Source: a virus. Taken from it: a stretch of DNA of 25,991 nucleotides. The stretch covers positions 1-25,991 of the IMG/VR virus record IMGVR_UViG_3300046170_000157; one strand, 5' to 3'. Made by a program: the position numbers and the translations under genes. This document shows positions 4,746 to 17,981 of this stretch, one piece after another (position 1 is the first letter of the stretch; the number at the start of each line of letters is the position of its first letter). The notes beneath the pieces are model-generated. The model saw nothing but the letters and a program-made list of their open reading frames with translations, searched no databases and was not told the origin of the DNA.

Positions 4746-5550
4746 GAAAACAATAAAAAGAACATCTTACACAAAAAAAGATTTTAATAATGTAATTATA
4801 CCAACTTGGCAAAGATGGAAAAACGAAAAGAATGTAAAAGATTTAGCTGAAGCAGTATCTGAAAACGGACAGCTTCGGGATGTTCTTATATGTATAACTA
4901 AAAACCGAACTAAAATATTAACTGATGGAAACCACTTATGTAGTGCTGTTTTCGATTATCTTAAATACAGAAAGATTAATGTTTTAGAAAAACAAGTTAA
5001 AGACAATGAAGAAGCAAGAGAAACATTTATATCTTTTAACACAAGAGGAAAATCTTTAAAAGTCATTGATTACATTGTTAGCTATGCTGGTAGTGGGAAT
5101 AAAGATTATAAAAGGTTTTTATTAGAGGTTATGAAAAGCCCAAACAACTTAAAGGAAGCTGAGGGTGTTTATGGAAAACTTTTTACTATCCCGTCTTTAA
5201 TTTCTATTTTTTTAGGTTTTACAAACAATGTTAAAAAAGGTGTTTGCAAATTACCTAAAAACCACAATAGACTTTTAGAAATTGTCGAGTATTTGGGGCA
5301 AAATTATTTATATGATGGAAGATTAATAAAGCACTTAAATAAAAATGGTAAAGCTATGAAACTAAATGGCGGAAGTATTATCCCAGTATTTAATAAGATT
5401 AAAAATAATAATAACATAATGTGTATGTCTAATGATGAAATATTAAATTTACTAATTGATTTTACTTTTTACCATTATAATTCAATGCAAAATTGCACTT
5501 TTACTAAAGATGCCATTGACAAAAGTTTTAATGTTTACCTAAAAAGATGA
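4744..5550 (+). CDS. ParB/Srx-fold-like protein (DGN motif), accessory gene
   Basis: 268 residues. The N-terminal third has the shape of a ParB-N/DGQHR-type domain: LAEAVSENGQLRDVLIC (about 34-50), then ILTDGNHLCSAV (58-69), in the position of the DGxHR motif, and FNTRGKSLKVIDYI (about 98-111). The remaining 150 residues are lysine/asparagine-rich and helical, with no domain I recognise. ParB-fold proteins use CTP or ATP or act as nucleases. The arginine after DGNH is replaced by leucine here, so catalysis is uncertain. It overlaps the following mom-like gene by 4 bp. Codon choice (TTT, AAT, GAT, TTA) is distinctly more AT-rich than the flanking genes, suggesting recent acquisition. Confidence 0.65.
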   Translation: MKTIKRTSYTKKDFNNVIIPTWQRWKNEKNVKDLAEAVSENGQLRDVLICITKNRTKILTDGNHLCSAVFDYLKYRKINVLEKQVKDNEEARETFISFNTRGKSLKVIDYIVSYAGSGNKDYKRFLLEVMKSPNNLKEAEGVYGKLFTIPSLISIFLGFTNNVKKGVCKLPKNHNRLLEIVEYLGQNYLYDGRLIKHLNKNGKAMKLNGGSIIPVFNKIKNNNNIMCMSNDEILNLLIDFTFYHYNSMQNCTFTKDAIDKSFNVYLKR

Positions 5551-6278
5551 TGAAGAAACAATACATATACTCAGCACAATCTTCATTATGGGGGGATTCA
5601 GTATGTTTAGGCTTTGGCACAGAAGAATTTTACATAAAAGAAATAGAGAGAAACCTTGCGAATGATTTAATAGTAAAGAATCACTACAGCGGTAAATTTT
5701 ATAATGCTACTTACATACACTTAGGTTTGTTTGTAGATGGAGAAATAAAAGGAGTTTTACAGTATGGCTACGCTATGAATCCAGCAAGCTGCGGAAGTGT
5801 AGTGACTGGAACACAAAAAAACGAGTATTTAGAATTAAACAGAATGTGGATAGCAGACAATGTTGGTAAATACCCAGAGAGTAGAGCAATAAGTTATTCA
5901 CTTAAATATATAAGACGTAAATACCCTAAAATAATGTGGATACAAAGCTTTGCAGATGAAAGATGCGGAGGGTTTGGAATTGTATATCAAGCTTGTTCTT
6001 TTAATTATTTTGGCGAACATAATAGTTTGTTTTGGACTTTAGACGGAAATATATACCATAATAGCTTAATGACAAGAAACCCTAGCCTAAGCAAGTCCGC
6101 TAAATACTTACAAGAAAACAAGAACAGAGCAACGAGCGAAAAATTAAGGCAATTTAGATACATTAAGTTCTTAGACCAAAGGGCAAAAAAAAAATGTACA
6201 TTGAAAGAGCAACCTTATCCAAAACACTATAATGAAACAAAAGAAACATACCCAGATTCAACGAATACTAAGACTTGA
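5547..6278 (+). CDS. mom: Mom-family DNA adenine modification enzyme (GNAT fold)
   Basis: 243 residues. The family resembles phage Mu Mom, which adds a carbamoylmethyl group to the N6 of adenine and protects phage DNA from many restriction enzymes. Supporting segments are VKNHYSGKF (43-51), LGLFVDGEIKGVLQYGYAMNP (about 59-79), ELNRMWIADN (about 92-101), SRAISYSLKYIRRKYP, and WIQSFADERCGGFGIVYQAC, the acetyltransferase-like core of the family. The C-terminal 60 residues are basic and could bind DNA. It starts within the ParB-like gene stop (ATGATG; either ATG is possible). Mu controls mom tightly, but no equivalent control is visible here. The last 47 bp overlap a small downstream ORF. Confidence 0.8.
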   Translation: MMKKQYIYSAQSSLWGDSVCLGFGTEEFYIKEIERNLANDLIVKNHYSGKFYNATYIHLGLFVDGEIKGVLQYGYAMNPASCGSVVTGTQKNEYLELNRMWIADNVGKYPESRAISYSLKYIRRKYPKIMWIQSFADERCGGFGIVYQACSFNYFGEHNSLFWTLDGNIYHNSLMTRNPSLSKSAKYLQENKNRATSEKLRQFRYIKFLDQRAKKKCTLKEQPYPKHYNETKETYPDSTNTKT

Positions 6279-6649: not shown

Positions 6650-6756
6650 TACATAACGAAATATTTTGCACTTACAGACAAGAGCAAGAGAAAATAGACA
6701 AAGCAATACAACTGCTAAAACAAAACGGCTATATTATACACAAGCGAGAGGAATGA
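6643..6756 (+). CDS. Small hypothetical protein, 37 residues
   Basis: ATG 6643 overlaps the end of the DUF5664 gene (ATGGTAA), and the TGA at 6754-6756 overlaps the methyltransferase start (ATGA). The product begins MVIHNEIFCTYRQEQEKIDK and continues AIQLLKQNGYIIHKREE: a helix followed by a strand, as in small helix-turn proteins. Double overlap strongly supports it as real and sets the methyltransferase start. Function unknown. Confidence 0.6.
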   Translation: MVIHNEIFCTYRQEQEKIDKAIQLLKQNGYIIHKREE

Positions 6757-7406
6757 AAATACTTAACTTGTATGCTTGTTTAGGTGGGAATAGGTATAAG
6801 TGGGACGAGGTTACAAAAGTAGAAGTAACAGCGGTTGAGTGGGACGAGGAACTTGCAAGGCTGTATCAGGAACGCTTCCCACAAGACAAAGTAATAGTAG
6901 CAGATGCACACCAATACTTACTAGACCACTACAAAGACTTTGATTTTATCTGGAGTAGTCCACCTTGTCCAACACATAGCAAGGTAAGAATGACACAAAA
7001 GACAACACAATCTTTTACCCCCCTATACCCAGATATGAAATTATATCAAGAAATTATATTTTTAGATAATCATTTTAATGGAAAGTATGTAGTTGAAAAT
7101 GTTACACCATATTATGAGCCTTTAATATCGGCAAAGAAACGAGGTAGGCACTTATATTGGACAAACTTTAACTTGCCAACTTGCTTAAATGAAAGAACAC
7201 AAGGAAAGGGTCTTATGAACGGAGTAACTAACGAAATACCAAAATGGTGTGAATTTCACGATTATGATTTTTATAAATATAAAGGAAAACAAAGGCGAGA
7301 TAAAATAGCAAGGAACTTAGTAGATTATGAAGCTGGTAAGACAATTCTAGAGACAGCGATAGGAATAATAAAAAAACAAAACGTAAAACAAACAGAATTA
7401 TTTTAA
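6753..7406 (+). CDS. C5-cytosine DNA methyltransferase (phage type)
   Basis: 217 residues from ATG 6753; an upstream in-frame ATG at 6666 would add 29 residues lying inside the preceding small gene. SAM-binding motif I is LNLYACLGGNRYKW (4-17). Motif IV is SSPPCPTHSK (68-77), with catalytic C72. Motif VI is VVENV (113-117). The C-terminal QRRDKIARNLV followed by AGKTILE corresponds to motifs IX-X in the compact phage form. The target-recognition domain is very short, as usual for this group. It methylates cytosine C5 in DNA, probably protecting phage DNA from host restriction. The second half (from about 7035) is richer in AT codons than the first, hinting at a mosaic gene. Confidence 0.85.
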   Translation: MKILNLYACLGGNRYKWDEVTKVEVTAVEWDEELARLYQERFPQDKVIVADAHQYLLDHYKDFDFIWSSPPCPTHSKVRMTQKTTQSFTPLYPDMKLYQEIIFLDNHFNGKYVVENVTPYYEPLISAKKRGRHLYWTNFNLPTCLNERTQGKGLMNGVTNEIPKWCEFHDYDFYKYKGKQRRDKIARNLVDYEAGKTILETAIGIIKKQNVKQTELF

Positions 7407-14960: not shown

Positions 14961-15101
14961 ATGATAAAACTAATACTAGACTCACTAAAATACGCAAACG
15001 GAGAAACAGAAGCAATCCGAATAGCACAAGGCAAATATAAACTGCCTACAACACTAAAAGAGGGGTTTAAAGCACTAAAACAAGAAATAATATGGCGATA
15101 G
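14961..15101 (+). CDS. Small hypothetical protein before tape measure
   Basis: 46 residues starting at ATG 14961 after TTTACGGAA and ending at TAG 15099-15101, ten bases into the tape measure gene. The product MIKLILDSLKYANGETEAIR, then IAQGKYKLPTTLKEGFKALK, is helical and basic. It fills the only gap between two structural genes and overlaps the next start, so it is probably real. It could be a tail accessory protein; no family recognised. Confidence 0.6.
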   Translation: MIKLILDSLKYANGETEAIRIAQGKYKLPTTLKEGFKALKQEIIWR

Positions 15102-16852
15102 ACAAGACAATCAATATAGACATAAATACTAAAAAAGGTCAAAAGGACGTCAAAGACTTAGAGAAATCAATAGGGGACGTAAACAAAGAAGTCAAAGAGG
15201 TAAGCGAATCTAGCAGCGAATTAACTGGACAGTTAGACAATCTTACGGGCGGCGCAATCTCTAAATTTAAAGGTTTTAGAGGCACTCTGAAAAATGTAAT
15301 AACGAGCTTCAAAAGTCTTAAAGTTGCTATTATAGGGACTGGGATAGGGGCTTTACTTATTGCAGTGGTTGCTTTAGGTCAAGCCTTTACAAGAAGTGAA
15401 GAGGGACAAAACAAGTTTTCTAAGATACTTGGGGTCATTGGCAGTGTTATAGGCAATCTCTTAGACTTACTCGCAGACTTAGGGGAGAATATAATATCTG
15501 TATTTGAAAACCCAAAACAAGCCTTAAAAGACTTTACTAAACTAATTAAAGAAAACCTAATAAACAGGTTTGAGGGTTTGCTAGAGTTATTCCCAAAACT
15601 AGGCAAGGCTATAAGTCTTTTGTTCAAAGGGGAGTTTAGTGCGGCTGGTAAGGTTGCTGCTGATGCAGTAGGTAAAGTTACTCTGGGGGTTGATAGTATT
15701 ACAGACAGTGTAAGCGGTGCAATAGAAAAAGTTAAAGAGTTCGGAGCAGAGGTCGCAAAAGATGCAGCAAACGCAGCAAAGATAGCAGACCTAAGAGCCA
15801 AGGCAGACAGACTAGATAGACAATTAATAGTAGACAGAGCAAAGGCAGACAGAGACCGAGCAACGCTTTTAGAGCAATCCGTAAACAAAGAAAAGTTTAC
15901 AGTACAAGAGAGGATAGCATTTTTGCAAGAAGCAGCAGACCTAGAGGAGAAAATAACAAACCAAGAAATAGAAGCGGCTAGATTAAGACTCCAAGCCCAA
16001 CAAGCCGAGAACGCTTTAGGGAAATCAACAAAAGAGGACAAAGAAAAAGCGGCACAATTAGAGGCAAACCTTATACAACTAGAGACAGCAAGGCTTACAA
16101 AACAAAAAGAGGTTACCTCTCAAATTATAGCTTTTAAGGCAGAGGAAGCCGCAGCACTTGAAGCAATAGAATCTGAAAAAGCAGCTAAGGAAAAAGAAAG
16201 GGCAGACCAAAAAGCAGCAGAGGACAAAGAACGCAAAGACAAAGAAATACAAGAAGAGAAGGACAGACTAGAACAAGAAAAAGAAATAGAAGCACAAAGA
16301 ATAGCAACAAGAGAAAACACTTTTAACACTGCTGTTCAATTAGCTGGCGCAGAGTCAAGACTAGGAAAAGCTATTCTATTAGCAAAGCAATTAATACAAG
16401 CCAAAGAGTTTATCTTAGATGCAAAGGCACAAATACTAAAAGCCAAAAAAGCTGTTGCAGATGCTACCATAAATGCTGCTGAGGCTGGTGTAGAGGTACA
16501 GGGTTCTATTGCCAAGGCCACAAATACAGCCCCTCCCCCTTTAAACATACCTTTTATTATTAGTGCCATAGCTACTGGGGCTGGGGTGCTATCTGCTGTT
16601 CAGTCTGCTGTAAGTGCCACTAAGAGCGCAGCTTCTGCCGTAGGTGGGGGAGGTGGGGGCGGTGCATCAATAAGCACTCCAACGGCACCAGCACCCCCTT
16701 CTTTTAATATTGTTGGGGCTAGTGATACAAACCAACTAGCGGACGCAATAGGAGGACAGACACAACAACCAGTACAAGCGTTTGTTGTAGCAAATGACGT
16801 CACAACTGCCCAGAGCCTAGAAAATAACATAGTCGAAGGGGCTACATTATAA
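15092..16852 (+). CDS. Tail tape measure protein
   Basis: 586 residues. The N-terminus is a charged helix (KKGQKDVKDLEKSIGDVNKE), followed by a hydrophobic segment at 78-97 (VAIIGTGIGALLIAVVALGQ) and a second one around 110-130. A long Ala/Lys/Glu coiled coil runs from about 235 to 420. A Gly-rich stretch near 517-526 precedes a Pro/Thr-rich C-terminus. These are standard features of tape measure proteins, which set tail length and help DNA cross the host membrane. At about 1.5 angstrom per residue it would suit a tail of less than 100 nm (family rule of thumb). It is the last gene before the intergenic region with the putative minus-strand RNA. Confidence 0.85.
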   Translation: MAIDKTINIDINTKKGQKDVKDLEKSIGDVNKEVKEVSESSSELTGQLDNLTGGAISKFKGFRGTLKNVITSFKSLKVAIIGTGIGALLIAVVALGQAFTRSEEGQNKFSKILGVIGSVIGNLLDLLADLGENIISVFENPKQALKDFTKLIKENLINRFEGLLELFPKLGKAISLLFKGEFSAAGKVAADAVGKVTLGVDSITDSVSGAIEKVKEFGAEVAKDAANAAKIADLRAKADRLDRQLIVDRAKADRDRATLLEQSVNKEKFTVQERIAFLQEAADLEEKITNQEIEAARLRLQAQQAENALGKSTKEDKEKAAQLEANLIQLETARLTKQKEVTSQIIAFKAEEAAALEAIESEKAAKEKERADQKAAEDKERKDKEIQEEKDRLEQEKEIEAQRIATRENTFNTAVQLAGAESRLGKAILLAKQLIQAKEFILDAKAQILKAKKAVADATINAAEAGVEVQGSIAKATNTAPPPLNIPFIISAIATGAGVLSAVQSAVSATKSAASAVGGGGGGGASISTPTAPAPPSFNIVGASDTNQLADAIGGQTQQPVQAFVVANDVTTAQSLENNIVEGATL

Positions 16853-16881
16853 AAAAAAGAGCCACTTGTAAAAAGTAGCTC
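16851..16881 (-). terminator. Minus-strand rho-independent terminator
   Basis: The 9-bp stem at 16859-16881 ends in eight U (plus-strand A8 at 16851-16858) when read on the minus strand. On the plus strand there is no T run after the hairpin, so it does not terminate the tail transcript in that direction. Confidence 0.75.
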
Positions 16882-16916
16882 AATCCGTAAGTATTAAAAT
16901 TTCGTAGATCTTAATA
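16851..16916 (-). ncRNA. Putative minus-strand small RNA, about 66 nt
   Basis: Read on the minus strand, the gap between tape measure and protease genes shows a complete small transcription unit. A promoter is described separately; the RNA would start near 16916. It folds into a first hairpin with an 8-bp perfect stem (AGUAUUAA/UUAAUACU, plus-strand 16890-16897 with 16911-16918; 13-nt loop), a short linker UACGGAUU, and a second hairpin with a 9-bp stem GAGCUACUU/AAGUGGCUC and 5-nt loop, followed by eight U. The second stem has a U-G pair on the minus strand that would be a C-A mismatch on the plus strand, so the minus strand is the folded one. No ORF is present. Function unknown. Confidence 0.65.
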
Positions 16917-16919
16917 CTG

Positions 16920-16950
16920 CAAATATACATCTTTTTTGATAAAAACAAAA
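16920..16950 (-). promoter_or_regulatory. Minus-strand Bacteroidetes-type promoter
   Basis: On the minus strand, TTTTG (16950-16946) is followed after 18 bp by TATATTTG (16927-16920). This matches the Bacteroidetes housekeeping consensus TTG-N17 to N23-TAnnTTTG. The predicted start, 4-6 bp on, falls at the base of the first hairpin of the putative small RNA. Confidence 0.65.
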
Positions 16951-16963
16951 TAAATTAAAAATA

Positions 16964-16979
16964 CTTATATATTAATATG
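16964..16979 (+). promoter_or_regulatory. Late-class motif, copy 3, abutting ATG
   Basis: CTTATATATTAATATG, with TATATATTAATA ending in the ATG of the protease gene (16977). It is preceded by AATTAAAAATA. The region also contains, in the opposite direction, the promoter of the putative small RNA, so the two promoters diverge within about 40 bp. Confidence 0.6.
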
Positions 16980-17477
16980 CGAATAGTAGAGCTTATCATT
17001 GATGAAGAGCAAGAAATAGGGATTGAGGCTATTTCAGTTGTAGAAAATCCAGCTATTGAAGAGGACTTTGTAGCCCTTAAATCACAAGAGTTTAAACTTG
17101 CAGAGGTAAACAAAGAGAAACGTATTTTATTAGGGGCTTTACTAGTCCCAAACAAGCCTATTTACAGACGTAACGGCAAAGACGAGTATTATATATATTT
17201 CTCAAAAGATACGGTCTTAAAAGCCTCTCAAATGTTCTTACAGCAAGGCAAACAAAACAACTCAACCTTAGAACACCAACACAAACTAAACGGTCTGTCT
17301 TTAGTGGAGTCTTGGATTGTTGAGGACCCTAAAATGGACAAGACTAAATTATACGGTATGGAACTCCCTCAAGGTACTTGGGTGGGTGCTGTAAAAGTAA
17401 ACAACGAGCAAGTCTGGAACGAGTTTGTAAAGACTGGCAGAGTCAAAGGGTTTTCAATAGAGGGCTACTTTCGCTGA
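16977..17477 (+). CDS. Prohead protease, XkdF-like (first frame segment)
   Basis: 166 residues in the uninterrupted frame. The opening (RIVELIIDEEQEIGIEAISV, then VENPAIEEDF) and the core (ALLVPNKPIYR, LEHQHKLNGLSLVESWIV, GTWVGAVKV, GRVKGFSIEGYF) match the XkdF-type serine protease of PBSX-like phages. H100/H102 and S160 in the GFSIEG turn are candidate catalytic residues. It matures the prohead by cleaving scaffold and capsid N-termini. The frame ends at TGA 17475-17477 directly after GYFR. Relatives continue with a DK-E segment, which is found here one base out of frame (see next entry). Confidence 0.85.
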   Translation: MRIVELIIDEEQEIGIEAISVVENPAIEEDFVALKSQEFKLAEVNKEKRILLGALLVPNKPIYRRNGKDEYYIYFSKDTVLKASQMFLQQGKQNNSTLEHQHKLNGLSLVESWIVEDPKMDKTKLYGMELPQGTWVGAVKVNNEQVWNEFVKTGRVKGFSIEGYFR

Positions 17478-17981
17478 CAAAATGGAGCGACCCAAAGACA
17501 AAACCTTAAAAGACGAACTAGCTAAGATTGAGGAAGAGGAAGCAGAGTACCTAGCTTAGTCAATTAGAGGATATTGTTTTATCTAAAAAAACAAACTTAG
17601 AAAGTTACACTGACTATCCAGATGCAGTAAAGAACAACGCTCAAAAAGGTATTGACCTTAACAAAAAGGTAAACAACAAATGCGCTACAGAGGTAGGCAA
17701 AATTAGAGCGCAGCAACTAGCACAAGGCAAAGCAATAAGCGAAGAGACAATCAAGCGTATGTACTCTTTTTTGTCAAGAGCAGAAGAGTATTACGATGAG
17801 ACAGACAAAGAGGCTTGTGGCTACTATTTCTTATTTATTGTGGGGCGGTTTAGCTGGTAAAAGATACGCTGCTAAAAAACTAAAAGAGTTTGGGGAGCTG
17901 AGTTTAGCCTCAGTTCTTGTAAACGATGACTTCGCTATTATAGACGATAGACTTGCTTACTCAACCGAAGAGAAAGCCTAA
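16977..17981 (+). pseudogene. Full-length protease gene interrupted by three +1 shifts
   Basis: Skipping one base at three places joins four open segments into one 333-residue protein: 16977-17471, 17473-17556, 17558-17821 and 17823-17981. The surplus bases are C at 17472, T at about 17557 and T at about 17822. The rejoined product reads GFSIEGYFADKMERPKD, an acidic EEEEAEYLASQLEDIVLSK linker, then YPDAVKNNAQKGIDLNKKVN, QQLAQGKAISEETIKRMYSF and EACGTISYLLWGGLAGKRYA. The later blocks belong to a conserved head-module domain normally in one frame. None of the inner segments has a plausible start codon. Causes may be sequencing or assembly errors, gene decay, or recoding; errors are the simplest explanation. 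Confidence 0.7.

Follow-up and report, generated by a model that had tools for sequence, protein, structure and literature searches.

What kind of unit occupies the minus strand between two plus-strand structural genes of this marine Bacteroidetes phage, and how did it come to lie there? The question arises in the window, the whole stretch of 25,991 nucleotides that was analysed (IMG/VR record IMGVR_UViG_3300046170_000157), where the stop codon of a tape-measure gene (16850-16852) and the start of a head maturation protease gene (16977) are separated by a spacer of 124 bp. Read along its minus strand, this gap contains, in order, TTG-N18-TATATTTG-CAGTATTAAGATCTACGAAATTTTAATACT-TACGGATT-GAGCTACTTTTTACAAGTGGCTC-TTTTTTTT (Table 1). 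Morons, such as the 'ant moron' of P22-like phages, are units that have been added to phage operons and are expressed independently of them, and they can include a noncoding RNA, as in the case of the sar antisense RNA in P22 (PMC2629481). We propose, with a probability of about 0.5, that the unit described here is a noncoding moron, a foreign segment of 90 bp lying antiparallel in the late structural operon and yielding a structured RNA of about 65 nt. An earlier note on this DNA had described a small-RNA gene in the gap, and its coordinates and base pairings proved correct when the sequence was re-read and folded.

Table 1. Coordinates of the minus-strand unit, its component elements and the two neighbouring genes in the window.
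Feature	Position	Strand	Basis
Tape-measure-like tail protein (upstream neighbour)	15092..16852	+	PHROG matches: tail length tape measure protein
Head maturation protease, N-terminal part; frame broken in window (downstream neighbour)	16977..17477	+	PHROG matches and relatives
90-bp insertion, tape-measure stop to protease start	16853..16942	-	Empty site in relatives; only window and L002 filled
-33 element TTG	16946..16948	-	Same bases in empty-site relatives
-7 box TATATTTG of predicted sigma-A promoter, TAnnTTTG	16920..16927	-	Consensus and position per PMC9723704
Predicted noncoding RNA of ~65 nt, +1 ~A16915 to end of U-tract	16851..16915	-	Promoter geometry and terminator
5' hairpin AGTATTAA/TTAATACT	16890..16918	-	Fold
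Intrinsic terminator, 9-bp stem, 5-nt loop, U8	16851..16881	-	Sequence, consensus scan, fold

The promoter that the earlier note saw on the minus strand, TTG-N18-TAnnTTTG, is present, with TTG at 16948-16946 separated by 18 nt from TATATTTG at 16927-16920. Because the Flavobacterium sigma-A box TAnnTTTG spans -12 to -5 (PMC9723704), transcription would start at about A16915 and produce an RNA of about 65 nt, close to the 66 nt first estimated. Near-identical promoters (AAAAAAGATGTATATTTGC and similar) are found 5' of a tRNA-His gene and of ORFs in Bacteroidia genomes, and sequence comparison supports the view that this promoter type is the one used by Bacteroidetes hosts. The unit had also been said to diverge from a promoter of the protease gene, a claim we could not uphold, since a scan of the plus strand of the gap for TAnnTTTG found none. 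Directly 5' of the protease ATG, positions 16953-16979 contain ACGTTATATAAT-like bases that recur in most relatives and may represent a conserved translation signal or late promoter.

Downstream of the box, the hairpin of 9 bp followed by eight U is confirmed: GAGCTACTT and AAGTGGCTC (16881-16859) pair around a loop of 5 nt and are followed by T8 (16858-16851), an arrangement also picked up by a consensus scan for terminators. The stop codon of the tape-measure gene contributes its AA to the U-tract. As had been claimed, this second stem pairs fully only as minus-strand RNA, which has U-G where plus-strand RNA has C-A. Folding gives -18.5 kcal/mol for the minus RNA (z -6.0, 0/200 shuffles) and -12.3 kcal/mol for the plus RNA (z -4.1). 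The first hairpin, AT-rich, likewise has the 8-bp stem previously described, AGTATTAA (16918-16911) pairing with TTAATACT (16897-16890), but as drawn it begins 3 nt upstream of the predicted start; with transcription from A16915 its stem would consist of about 8 bp of AUUAAGAU/AUUUUAAU. A short linker of about UUACGGAUU between the hairpins is predicted to be single-stranded. The combination of promoter and strong terminator within 150 nt occurs once in the window, in 0/200 shuffles of the whole window and in 0/3000 shuffles of the gap. A hidden small protein was ruled out, as the predicted RNA has no ATG and all TTG or GTG frames in the unit continue past the terminator and enter the tape-measure gene, and a tRNA search found none. 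The predicted product is thus noncoding, structured and intrinsically terminated, as phage trans-acting small RNAs are by sequence, and together these features support a minus-strand transcription unit that is complete and noncoding. By sequence, the unit has the promoter and terminator of its own that characterize a moron, the -33 TTG lying just outside the insert.

A moron should also be extra DNA in an operon that related phages have without it, and this was found. Some 160 viral contigs encoding protease relatives were fetched, and the junction could be measured in 153 contigs besides the window, six contigs ending too close to it. The spacer between tape-measure and protease genes is at most 63 bp in 152 of the 153, mostly 34-35 bp; L002 alone has a 124-bp spacer like that of the window. 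Relatives L003-L008, with 98-100% protease identity and 85-94% DNA identity over the main aligned blocks, carry a clean empty site, TTATAAAAACAAA, to which the window and L002 add 90 bp, so the unit is an insertion acquired at a single exact point. Direct repeats of 7 bp, ATAAAAA (16849-16855 and 16939-16945), border the insertion and leave its exact edges ambiguous within them; they suggest entry either through microhomology or with duplication of a 7-bp target. The TTG of the promoter lies outside the 90 bp and comes from the original phage junction. This fits a scenario in which the -7 box was acquired with the unit and the promoter was completed at the landing site by the phage TTG; alternatively, the -33 element may be dispensable. 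The earlier note would have counted relatives lacking the hairpins against its gene. Literally, all relatives but one lack them, yet what is absent is the whole insertion, which points to an acquired accessory unit rather than decay of a conserved structure.

The second copy helps to define what was acquired. The insert of L002 is identical to that of the window at 90/90 positions, although the two contigs are 88.5% identical (11.5% divergence) over 8.3 kb. Since L002 is independent and divergent, an assembly artefact was rejected as the source of the insert. Such identity despite divergent flanks suggests either constraint or recent exchange, which two copies cannot separate; both copies of the stems are identical (n = 2), leaving no compensatory changes to compare. 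At the tape-measure end L002 diverges from the window by about 11%, and within the protease gene by about 4%; the probability of no change in 90 bp is about 2e-5 at the former rate and about 0.02 at the latter. With the protease gene so little diverged, agreement at 90/90 positions is by itself weak evidence for constraint. L007, the closest to the window among L003-L008, is nearer to it than L002 yet has no insert, and so presence of the unit does not follow overall relatedness.

Elsewhere in the window, the protease gene itself departs from all the close relatives compared by four inserted single bases (TAC|T|TTC, CTA|G|CTT, GGC|T|ACT and GCC|T|AAA, within 17468-17979). Each lies at a codon boundary and is soon followed by a stop, whereas in L003 and L007 the frame stays open over its length. 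No comparable cluster was seen in the other aligned parts; decay, assembly error or something else may have produced it. A Mom-like protein of DNA modification (phrog_1384, E 2e-56) is encoded at 5547-6278, and a gene resembling a DNA methyltransferase lies nearby at 6666-7406.

Homologues were sought among RNA families, phages, plasmids and hosts. The suggestion that the RNA belongs to the Flavo-1 class was rejected, as was membership of other Rfam families: the 601-bp region gave no Flavo-1 match up to E = 10, its best covariance-model score was 18.5 bits for suhB/mmgR against a cut-off of 41, and nothing in the window reached a gathering score. In IMG/VR, exact-pattern scans for the 5' hairpin, linker and terminator returned L002 only, plus a coding coincidence in L189, making the insert rare (two records, the window and L002). 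Phage BLAST searches yielded only weak AT-rich matches or, in Polaribacter P12002L and Tenacibaculum Gundel_1, stretches resembling promoters, and a plasmid search for the insert yielded none. A genome-wide scan for the terminator stem hit five unrelated bacteria, as ordinary terminators, and a similar terminator lies 3' of a Bacteroidia FKBP-type gene. The idea of a captured host RNA likewise gained no backing from the roughly 1,200 Bacteroidia genomes sampled (a search run with no positive control), in which the only matches were to the promoter, to the terminator or short ones due to chance, none of them full length.

The main rival explanation is that the insert is a functionless passenger, perhaps still transcribed: the promoter and terminator left by a lost protein-gene moron in reverse orientation, or a scrap of host intergenic DNA picked up by chance. 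We consider this a serious competitor, though less probable than a noncoding moron. In its favour, each half of the insert, promoter and terminator, looks like an ordinary host element and the two match at different places, no full-length homologue was found anywhere searched, and many close relatives live without the insert. In L072 (about 70% protease identity), a minus-strand gene start (MTYKEFYTEATKGID..., L072:1-90) lies directly 5' of the protease gene, in the same orientation as the unit and with a TATATTTA -7-like box; the contig ends inside this gene, so that the tape-measure side falls outside it. Against this explanation, there is no trace of coding sequence between promoter and terminator; that space is occupied by a regular 5' hairpin, and the two copies are letter-identical though their flanks differ by 4-11%.

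The gene start in L072 has a wider distribution. The same MTYKEFYTEATKGID... protein, 52 aa where complete and with no PHROG match, is encoded behind the terminase gene in L184-L187, co-oriented with it and under its own TATATTTG promoter (L184:9505-9536; L186:5614-5645). Its location at the terminase in these contigs and at the protease in L072 suggests that small self-promoting units move between junctions within this phage group, as morons do. Two further regions were observed in named phages. In Tenacibaculum phage Gundel_1 (L089:2382-2538, minus strand), an unannotated segment among clustered tRNA genes has a promoter of the same type (TATATTTGCAGTATG), a frame of up to 23 codons and a terminator, making it a candidate small transcription unit. 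In Polaribacter phage P12002L (L088:2046-2641), an unannotated intergenic region of about 600 bp near the tape-measure gene holds minus-strand TATATTTG promoter-like sites and a terminator.

A second alternative is that the RNA acts in cis, being fully complementary to the tape-measure/protease spacer of the late mRNA, so that pairing, RNase III cutting or polymerase collision there would lower or separate head versus tail expression. The unit is antisense to a spacer inside the late operon, its complement would be present in every read-through late transcript, and STnc6030, which acts on the BTP1 tailspike mRNA, provides a precedent for a phage antisense RNA on a structural gene (PMC12197685). 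We nevertheless regard this explanation as improbable: the complementarity exists merely because the mRNA contains the insert itself, the antisense covers neither the protease start nor tape-measure coding sequence, and relatives manage without the insert. Least probable is a small MITE-like mobile element with a 7-bp target-site duplication, because, although the insertion is clean with ATAAAAA on both sides, it has no terminal inverted repeats, IMG/VR, phages, plasmids and the ~1,200 Bacteroidia genomes yielded no further complete copy, and microhomology explains a 7-bp A-rich repeat equally well.

If the unit is a noncoding moron, its promoter would be served by host RNA polymerase as soon as infection begins, with no dependence on the late transcription of the phage. 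Transcription would halt precisely on the stop codon of the tape-measure gene, sparing the structural genes from antisense reading, and would release a stable short RNA consisting of the 5' hairpin, the linker and the terminator hairpin. This predicted layout is that of a trans-acting base-pairing small RNA. Among the start-codon regions of the phage, none pairs with the RNA better than with shuffled RNA (best z -0.57), and a phage target is thus not indicated; the likely target would be a host mRNA, bound in trans by either the unpaired linker or the 5' loop. We infer transcription, start site, regulatory function and a host target from these features of the DNA. A bolder version, which we hold to be rather unlikely, is that the unit is an exchangeable noncoding RNA gene, a 90-bp cassette that marine Bacteroidetes phages exchange at the boundary of tail and head genes and that uses early sigma-A transcription to reprogram a host mRNA.

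Like other phage-encoded small RNAs (PMC12197685), the RNA predicted here from sequence is short and has its own promoter, a hairpin and an intrinsic terminator. The names Bacteroides and Flavobacterium are absent from the text of that review, and a search of the open full-text literature for small RNAs of Flavobacterium or Cellulophaga phages found none; if the RNA is made, it would provide a Bacteroidetes phage small RNA accompanied by a natural experiment, in that close relatives exist with and without the cassette. No likeness to Flavo-1 (Rfam) was detected over the 601-bp region at E values up to 10. Independent Flavobacterium small RNAs such as Rfp18 share with the unit the TAnnTTTG box at -12 to -5 and its predicted organization as an independent transcription unit, but the Rfp RNAs are chromosomal and expression-mapped (PMC9723704), and the likeness is one of promoter type and layout. 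As in phage morons, extra DNA lies between late genes, is present or absent in close relatives, and has a promoter and terminator by sequence. Unlike known morons, the unit is wholly noncoding, 90 bp long and antiparallel, and it has its -33 element in the phage flank; if its RNA is made, morons can be reduced to a single RNA in little more than 90 bp.
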